A DNA stretch of 64,000 bases from NCBI RefSeq assembly GCF_900461525.1, contig NZ_UGOD01000001.1, positions 837,001 through 901,000 on the forward strand. The letters are read 5' to 3'. A model generated the notes under the pieces. The model was given only the letters and a program-made list of their open reading frames with translations, ran no database searches and was not told the origin of the DNA. This document shows positions 9,707-11,265 of the stretch, one piece after another. The position numbers were made by a program, and so were the translations under genes. The stretch is from Legionella busanensis. Its GTDB lineage: Bacteria > Pseudomonadota > Gammaproteobacteria > Legionellales > Legionellaceae. How positions within the stretch are numbered: position 1 is the stretch's first letter; every line of letters starts with the position of its first letter.

Positions 9707-10876
9707 GTGGATACCCAAAATTTACCTATTTATTTTGATTATATGGCTACTACGCCTGTTGATCCCCAAGTTGCAGAAAAAATGATGCAATATCTTGGGC
9801 CTGAAGGAGTATTTGGTAATCCTAATTCAATAACCCATGATTATGGCCGGCTTGCAGCAGTAGCTGTTGAAAATGCTAGATCACAAATTGCTGATTCAAT
9901 CTCTGCTAATCCAAGAGAAATTGTTTTTACTTCTGGTGCAACAGAAGCAAATAATCTTGCTATTATTGGTGCTGCCCATTTTTATCAGCGCAAAGGTCGG
10001 CATCTTATTACAATGATAACAGAGCATAAAGCTGTACTTGATAGTTTTGCTCAATTAGAAAAAGAAGGGTTTGTAGTTACATATTTAAGTCCTAAATCAG
10101 ATGGTTTACTAAATTTAGATGAATTAAATCAAGCTTTACAACCTGATACTATTTTAGTTTCCATTATGCATGTTAACAATGAAATTGGTGTTATCCAGGA
10201 CATTGCAAGCATCGGTAGCTTGCTCAAAAAGCAAGGTATTATTTTCCATGTTGATGCTGCACAAAGTGCAGGCAAATTACCAATTAATTTACAAGCGTTA
10301 TCAGTTGATTTAATGTCTTTTTCAGCACACAAGAATTATGGCCCAAAAGGCGTAGGTGCATTATATATTCGACACAAACCACGTATCCGTATTGAACCTC
10401 GCTCTTTTGGGGGTGCTCACGAAAACGGATTAAGGGCAGGAACACTCGCTACACATCAAATAGTGGGTATGGGAGAGGCTTTTCATTTGGCTCAATTAAA
10501 GCGTGTTGATGAACAAGCAAGATTATTAGAATTAAGGCAAAAACTTTGGCAGGGTATCAAAAATATTCCAGGCATTAAATTAAATGGTCATCCCACTGAG
10601 CGTATTGCTGGGAATCTTAATTTAACTTTTTCAGGTATTCATAGTGAGTCTTTGCTACTTGCTCTACGTCAATTAGCTGTTTCTACAACCTCTGCTTGTG
10701 CATCAGCAAGTTTTGCACCATCTTATGTTTTAAAAGCGCTAGGGCTAAGCGCCGAAGCAGCTTATAGTTCTATTAGGCTTTCTATAGGTCGTTTTACAAC
10801 AGAGGAAGATATAAATCAAGCAATTGAAATTATTAATACGCAAATTTTGCGACTACAGCAAATGGCGCCTTTATGA
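9707..10876 (+). CDS. iscS: Cysteine desulfurase IscS
   Basis: About 389 residues from a GTG at 9707, chosen because it follows the purine-rich AGAGAA and gives the family N-terminus (LPIYFDYMATTPVDP). The PLP lysine lies in SAHKNYGPKG and the persulfide cysteine in the loop TTSACASASF (E. coli has STGSACTSAS). The C-terminal SSIRLSIGRFTTEEDI matches IscS. It transfers sulfur from cysteine for Fe-S clusters and tRNA thiolation. The operon trmJ-iscS-(IscU-like)-iscA is tightly packed with 4-nt overlaps; iscR, hscBA and fdx are not present here. Confidence 0.93.
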   Translation: MDTQNLPIYFDYMATTPVDPQVAEKMMQYLGPEGVFGNPNSITHDYGRLAAVAVENARSQIADSISANPREIVFTSGATEANNLAIIGAAHFYQRKGRHLITMITEHKAVLDSFAQLEKEGFVVTYLSPKSDGLLNLDELNQALQPDTILVSIMHVNNEIGVIQDIASIGSLLKKQGIIFHVDAAQSAGKLPINLQALSVDLMSFSAHKNYGPKGVGALYIRHKPRIRIEPRSFGGAHENGLRAGTLATHQIVGMGEAFHLAQLKRVDEQARLLELRQKLWQGIKNIPGIKLNGHPTERIAGNLNLTFSGIHSESLLLALRQLAVSTTSACASASFAPSYVLKALGLSAEAAYSSIRLSIGRFTTEEDINQAIEIINTQILRLQQMAPL

Positions 10877-11265
10877 TTTATAATAATCTTGTTAAGCATT
10901 ATTTTTTTCAGCCGGAACATATTGGAAAATTAGATGGTACTTTATCTAGGACTGCGTATTGTTCAATAAGTGATGCATCTAAAAGTAATTATTTTGATTT
11001 ATATATAGCCTGTGATGAGTCAGAGCAAATTATAAGAGCATGTTTTAAGGCATGTGGTAGTCCATATTTAATCGCGAGCCTTGAATGGCTCTGTAAGCAA
11101 TTAGAAGGTAGCTTTTTAAAAGCGCATCCTAAGCTAACTTATCTAGTTTTAGTAAGTCATTTAGATATACCTAATCATGTATATCCAATAGCAATCTTGG
11201 TTGAAAAAGGCTATAACAATATTATATTGGCTATGAAAAAAAAGCTAAATGAGGAAAAGAAATGA
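10873..11265 (+). CDS. IscU-like protein lacking cluster-binding residues
   Basis: 130 residues, same length and position as IscU. Segments align with the IscU fold: VKHYFFQPEHIGKLDG (IscU: DHYENPRNVGSFD), FDLYIACDESEQIIRACFKACGS, and YPIAILVEKGYNNIILAMKKK at the end. Compared from memory with E. coli IscU, the ligands C37, D39, C63, H105 and C106 become K37, N39, S63, P105 and I106, and the LPPVK motif recognised by HscA becomes IPNHV. Cysteines remain at 30, 47, 57, 61 and 74 but not in the ligand positions (C61 is two residues away from 63). It is an intact gene with 4-nt overlaps on both sides, so it is probably expressed. It may be a regulatory or structural partner of IscS rather than a scaffold. 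Confidence 0.7.
   Translation: MIYNNLVKHYFFQPEHIGKLDGTLSRTAYCSISDASKSNYFDLYIACDESEQIIRACFKACGSPYLIASLEWLCKQLEGSFLKAHPKLTYLVLVSHLDIPNHVYPIAILVEKGYNNIILAMKKKLNEEKK

Follow-up and report, generated by a model that had tools for sequence, protein, structure and literature searches.

What becomes of the scaffold protein IscU when every residue expected to hold its cluster has been replaced? The question is raised by a stretch of 64,000 nucleotides from Legionella busanensis (contig NZ_UGOD01000001.1, positions 837,001 to 901,000; here called the window), which belongs to a genome of 3.93 Mb (G000, contig C1). Between iscS, encoding a cysteine desulfurase, and iscA, encoding an A-type carrier, the window contains a gene for a protein of 130 amino acids that is an IscU by position and lacks the cluster ligands; we call it pseudo-IscU (psIscU). 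Probably, psIscU is the IscU of a reduced iron-sulfur cluster (ISC) operon, a former scaffold kept as a subunit that docks on IscS and gates or directs its sulfur.

The alignment of psIscU to Escherichia coli IscU is gap-free through residue 124. The E. coli ligands C37, D39, C63, H105, and C106 are replaced by K, N, S, P, and I, while the HscA motif LPPVK has become IPNHV. This alignment confirms what the first-pass annotation had seen by eye, an intact gene in the IscU slot with these five residues at the ligand sites and no LPPVK. Ligand cysteines at shifted positions were considered and rejected, as the alignment has no gaps there and no cysteine recurs at any ligand site. The IscU equivalog model TIGR01999 gives psIscU 27.7 bits, far below the curated cut-off of 192.4 bits, and the SufU model TIGR01994 gives no match at E ≤ 1. 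The general NifU_N model (PF01592) is matched with 25.6 bits, above its gathering cut-off of 22 bits, and 13 of the 15 members of set A2 match it at E ≤ 0.001. Annotation by NifU_N alone can label such genomes as ISC-competent. The structure predicted for psIscU has the IscU fold. Judged by its residues, psIscU has ceased to be a cluster scaffold.

In the family, 143 genomes were surveyed with a profile built from 15 orthologues. It matched psIscU in 83 of them, in nine of the 33 genera and in all 11 genomes of its own genus. The family-profile search gave 16 named loci, all from Legionella or Tatlockia; the nearest of these is Legionella gresilensis, with 89% in the best segment (records of the source genome itself were possibly excluded). 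Residues were tabulated for 63 of the 83 copies. All three ligand cysteines are absent from 61 of these, and a single one is left in G019 (C63) and in G030 (C106). D39 is retained in 22 copies and H105 in four, and LPPVK is not among the eight commonest forms of the HscA motif. The exact residues replacing the ligands differ between copies (position 63 is N in 52, S in eight, D in two, and C in one), but the loss itself is constant. The proposal that the protein cannot act as an ordinary scaffold is thus borne out across the family. Other positions have been kept: Y3, F11, and P64 are invariant in the 63 copies, and G62 and K/R59 are each found in 62. The ratio of nonsynonymous to synonymous substitution rates (dN/dS) is 0.085-0.36 for psIscU in 14 of 14 gene pairs, compared with 0.02-0.135 for IscS, and is higher for psIscU in 13 of them. 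The gene is maintained by purifying selection. A sequence error is rejected because relatives show the same ligand loss, and a pseudogene because the gene is carried by 83 of the 143 genomes and is under purifying selection in every pair.

The selection apparently acts because psIscU docks on IscS, and the pattern of change in the partner protein favors this. According to excerpts of the report on the E. coli IscS-IscU complex (PMC2854127), IscU contacts IscS at residues 309-316, 347, the end of helix 11, and 379-391, and an IscS lacking residues 376-404 is cited there as failing to bind IscU. The contacts used here were 309-316, 347, and 379-386, 17 positions in all, since 387-391 are missing in nearly the whole family and those excerpts give no residue numbers for helix 11. 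The iscS region was fetched for 51 of the 60 family genomes with no psIscU match; three with cut iscS ends (L119, L120, L143) were dropped, and the remaining 48 were compared with the 63 over 383 positions. In genomes without psIscU, entropy is higher by 1.11 bits at the 17 contacts versus 0.25 bits at the other 366 positions (p=6.8e-6), and the contacts outside the C-terminus (309-316, 347) give p=0.0023 on their own. Seven positions of the TusA site give p=0.41; one of them, position 239, was taken from a published tested double mutant and is not a listed TusA contact. When only sites at least 75% conserved in the 63 are considered, 64% are replaced in the 48 at 12 contacts versus 14% at 243 other sites (p=3.2e-6). 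Over all 48, the contacts most affected are P385, S312, L315, D311, R379, and S384. Seven of the psIscU-less genomes nest within the main clade, where some of the branches concerned lack good support; in these seven, replacement is 46% at contacts and 7% elsewhere (p=4.4e-6). A C-terminal IscS motif, Lxx[ILM]xP, which was picked after inspecting the sequences, is present in 58 of the 63 genomes with psIscU and in one of the 48 without. Since the IscS-facing residues of psIscU are kept, its ligands are gone, and its absence is accompanied by drift where IscU would bind on IscS, psIscU is best explained as an IscS subunit.

The locus in the window contains the following features.

8971..9702, plus strand: trmJ, tRNA methyltransferase, heading the conserved gene order (likely ATG start by sequence reading; the mechanical open reading frame begins at 8923)
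9707..10876, plus strand: iscS, cysteine desulfurase of 389 amino acids (likely GTG start; the mechanical open reading frame begins at 9653)
10873..11265, plus strand: pseudo-IscU (ligand-less IscU, psIscU), 130 amino acids
11262..11633, plus strand: A-type carrier of the iscA/sufA type, with the three cysteines of E. coli IscA retained
12089..12373, plus strand: fis-like DNA-binding protein, assigned by eye, without a family search
12411-12764, plus strand: RNase P RNA, immediately 3' of the fis-like gene

The psIscU gene shares a four-nucleotide ATGA overlap with iscS upstream and with iscA downstream, and thus holds the operon position of iscU, between iscS and iscA and 3' of trmJ. The order is that of E. 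coli trmJ-iscR-iscS-iscU-iscA minus iscR; hscB, hscA, and fdx are also missing from the downstream part of the operon. The encoded IscS retains the active-site Cys328. Its C-terminal tail (E. coli 387-404) is missing, and the match to TIGR02006 reaches position 384 of 402. A fis-like gene 3' of the operon is also found in several relatives. Elsewhere in the window, at 47570-47694 on the minus strand, a thiamine pyrophosphate (TPP) riboswitch scores 54.9 bits, barely over the threshold of 54.3.

The genome was searched for the proteins that would accompany a working scaffold. The only other NifU_N gene is that of a SufU, which retains its cysteines and scores 160.5 bits with TIGR01994; no canonical IscU was found in the genome. 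The designation of psIscU as a paralogue is therefore not upheld: it is the syntenic, positional IscU. The operon of the sulfur mobilization (SUF) system is complete, with a regulator and sufB, C, D, S, U, and T. Its first gene (L281 7831-8295, minus strand) encodes a TIGR02944-type regulator (suf_reg_Xantho), a hint that the degenerate-IscU state may accompany suf operons of this kind. HscB, the isc ferredoxin, and frataxin (CyaY) have no match in the genome at E ≤ 0.001. The first-pass annotation had linked the loss of the HscA site to the lack of its partners; this fits, with HscB and the isc ferredoxin unmatched genome-wide, HscA itself not having been searched for. Among the 32 family genomes searched there is no isc ferredoxin and no frataxin, and the lone HscB_C match is a weak one (G025, 24.2 bits in a 369-amino-acid frame). 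For TusA, none of the 11 genus members gives a match, and four of the 32 family genomes do. MnmA and ThiI are sulfur customers of IscS, and given this scarcity of TusA the customers here are probably MnmA, ThiI, or IscA. In the genus (G000-G010), which has no TusA match, MnmA would need its sulfur from IscS directly or via another carrier.

Gene fusions also tie psIscU to its neighbors. psIscU and IscA are encoded in one frame in two family genomes of two genera, G012 (L047 1462-2271) and G142 (L073). Outside the family, IscS is fused to a degenerate IscU in G442 (L259 248-1936; 562 open codons, 540 from the likely start) and in G044 (L260 3118-1412; 568 amino acids), with iscA close downstream in both. 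SufU-like matches were also seen within frames of 568 amino acids (G288:C123:21663-21911) and 558 amino acids (G407:C54:22305-22550), perhaps SufS-SufU fusions. The co-evolution at the interface and the fusions together are good indirect evidence that psIscU docks on IscS. Of the earlier interpretation, the loss of scaffold function thus stands, a link to IscS draws indirect support from the eroded interface and the fusions, modulation of IscS activity is a putative role, and the paralogy has fallen.

Excerpts of published work describe IscU as binding near the Cys328 loop of IscS (PMC2854127), as competing with TusA on IscS and lowering the activity of the IscS-TusA complex (PMC11302665), and as raising IscS activity slightly when alone (PMC2854127; PMC11302665). 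From this competition we infer that psIscU may gate the activity of IscS or its choice of partner. psIscU would most likely sit at the canonical IscU site (alpha8/alpha12), next to the mobile Cys328 loop. With the site occupied by a protein that has no ligand cysteine to accept sulfur, the desulfurase would be gated, and the release of persulfide would be limited or directed, so that IscS could supply the recipients that remain to it (probably IscA and tRNA thiolation), with cluster building left to SUF. As the cysteines have been lost and yet the docking on IscS has apparently been kept, psIscU probably directs sulfur and builds no clusters.

Several observations weigh against psIscU being such a docking subunit. 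It is unmatched in 60 of the 143 family genomes, some of which are incomplete assemblies, and is thus dispensable. TusA had to be rejected as the controlled competitor in the genus, as it was unmatched in 11 of 11 genomes. The listed contacts on the psIscU side (3, 11, 38, 40, 42, 59-64, 103) show only a weak excess of conservation over the other positions (p=0.042), and positions 38, 40, 42, 61, and 103 are variable. In the psIscU of the window, position 103 is V, and in E. coli the exchange K103E prevents binding; the adjacent IscS lacks residues 387-404, which fall within the stretch that E. coli IscS cannot lose without losing IscU binding. For three TusA-site positions, the nested set gives p=0.041. 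Among the genomes carrying psIscU, six divergent ones also vary more at the contacts than at other positions (33% versus 17%, p=0.007); L315 nevertheless stays in all six, and S312 and R379 in five. On an IscS tree built without the interface columns, the presence of psIscU needs seven changes, and a sign test has no power, since good branch support is limited to a single independent pair.

The same gene order and fusions bear on another account, in which psIscU tethers IscS to the A-type carrier and persulfide sulfur passes directly to IscA, which thereby becomes the scaffold in an ISC system of three proteins. The S-X-A order with its four-nucleotide overlaps, the fusions of both kinds (IscS-X in G442 and G044, X-IscA in G012 and G142), and the retained cysteines of IscA are what such a bridge would lead one to expect. 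We nevertheless regard it as unlikely. In 27 of the 48 genomes without psIscU, iscA begins within 111 nucleotides of iscS (the other 21 have no iscA in the fetched stretch), so the iscS-iscA pair persists without a bridge; nor was an isc ferredoxin found for the reductive step.

It is more doubtful still that psIscU shuttles sulfur on a non-ligand cysteine in the manner of SufE or SufU. The candidate is C74 (T74 in E. coli IscU), present in 60 of the 63 family copies, and outside lineages that have C63 (11 of 29) or C106 (eight of 29) could still accept a persulfide. In the predicted structure, however, C74 lies ten residues into a helix starting at position 64, probably far from the IscS loop, and only nine of 31 copies outside the family have a cysteine there. 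If psIscU were a functionless relic in the process of being lost, this would account for the 60 genomes lacking a match and for a dN/dS exceeding the IscS value in 13 of 14 pairs, but the idea is largely refuted by selection and must be considered very improbable: dN/dS is below 0.4 in every pair, Y3, F11, and P64 are invariant, the IscS interface is eroded where psIscU is absent, fusions exist, and similar proteins occur in 26 further families. Least credible is that psIscU still acts as a scaffold through unusual ligands, or as a chaperone that binds metal, for which the predicted IscU fold and D39 in 22 of 63 copies could be cited, against 61 of 63 copies without the three ligand cysteines, the presence of SUF, and the lack of any match to HscB and the isc ferredoxin.

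Ligand-poor IscU proteins also occur elsewhere in the class. Of 369 genomes spread over the Gammaproteobacteria, 152 have an IscU above the curated cut-off. The follow-up covered 48 class genomes with an intermediate score or two matches (18 + 30; one of the 18 over the cut-off), 18 further stretches, and G035 and G051; no rate can be derived from it, as the genomes were chosen by score. At 29 loci in 26 other gammaproteobacterial families, a ligand-poor IscU adjoins IscS or is fused with it; two more loci (L247, L258) with no iscS in the stretch are outside this count. Among the 29, C37 is retained in none, D39 in five, C63 in 11, H105 in 12, C106 in eight, and Y3 in 20. The copies that keep C106 but not C37 are L009, L049, L185, L186, L187, L190, L251, and L257. 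C106 is at the position of the human persulfide acceptor, and these copies are possible sulfur acceptors, not scaffolds.

The IscS beside these proteins differs at its C-terminus. A tail of the GVDLxxxxW type, scored by pattern, is found in none of the 29, several of which have a shorter or different extension (e.g., L192, L197, L198, L250, L254). All canonical loci with an iscS in the stretch have it, nine of nine plus a further 18 of 18 (20 were fetched); 17 of these 18 were scored by pattern, and L279 (GIDIEKVQW) was counted by eye. The tail is thus present in 27 of 27 canonical loci versus none of 92 (29 outside plus 63 family). These 119 loci were rejected as independent confirmations of tail loss: on a tree of 78 IscS rows (28 canonical and 50 tail-less, 21 of the latter for the family), built by a quick method and having several long branches, the two groups part by a single change (Shimodaira-Hasegawa-like approximate likelihood ratio test, SH-aLRT, 90), so that 27/27 versus 0/92 may reflect one event. 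C37 and the IscS tail may have been lost once, long ago. On this basis we put forward, tentatively and at somewhat less than even chances, an old class-wide ISC branch in Gammaproteobacteria that make their clusters with SUF, where IscU became a subunit of a tail-less IscS and IscS-pseudoIscU-IscA a sulfur-routing module, not a cluster factory. The first step would have been the loss of C37 and the tail, followed by that of C63, H105, and C106 to differing degrees. If this is true, cluster building has its markers in C37 and the IscS tail, and docking has its own in Tyr3, F11, K59, and G62.

No report of a ligand-less IscU of this kind was found in the titles and abstracts of the open-access PMC literature, where a mention inside a paper may be missed. 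A selected, widespread pseudo-scaffold of this sort makes testable the role of the N-terminal tyrosine, the role of the IscS C-terminal tail, and the question of why bacteria with SUF keep IscS. The tyrosine poses a puzzle. Excerpts of PMC8617193 call Tyr35 of ISCU2, which matches Tyr3, universally conserved, and describe it as needed for a late dimer/cluster step and not for desulfurase binding. It is yet retained in 63 of 63 ligand-less family copies and in 20 of the 29 outside.

The folds of CyaY/frataxin, IscX, and TusA differ from the IscU fold. Like psIscU as read here, these are small IscS binders able to change IscS activity, but they use other binding sites on IscS, as described in excerpts of PMC2854127, and CyaY is found in none and TusA in four of the 32 family genomes. 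The degenerate A-type domain of NfuA is another Fe-S biogenesis fold kept after the loss of a ligand cysteine; according to excerpts of PMC8593673 it is joined to a working Nfu domain, while psIscU stands alone, has lost all ligand cysteines, and has IscS as its likely partner. SufU, a Zn-dependent sulfur transfer protein (TIGR01994), shares with psIscU the IscU fold, a non-scaffold role, and, in the case of psIscU probably, a cysteine desulfurase partner, but psIscU does not match the SufU model, and the SufU encoded in its genome has retained the cysteines. From the scaffolds IscU and ISCU2, psIscU differs in having no three cluster cysteines, no H105, and no LPPVK, in its score, and in a genome where HscB and the isc ferredoxin were not found. 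IscU is the textbook scaffold, defined by its cysteines; a widespread form without them separates the holding of clusters from the binding of the desulfurase, two properties that are joined in E. coli.
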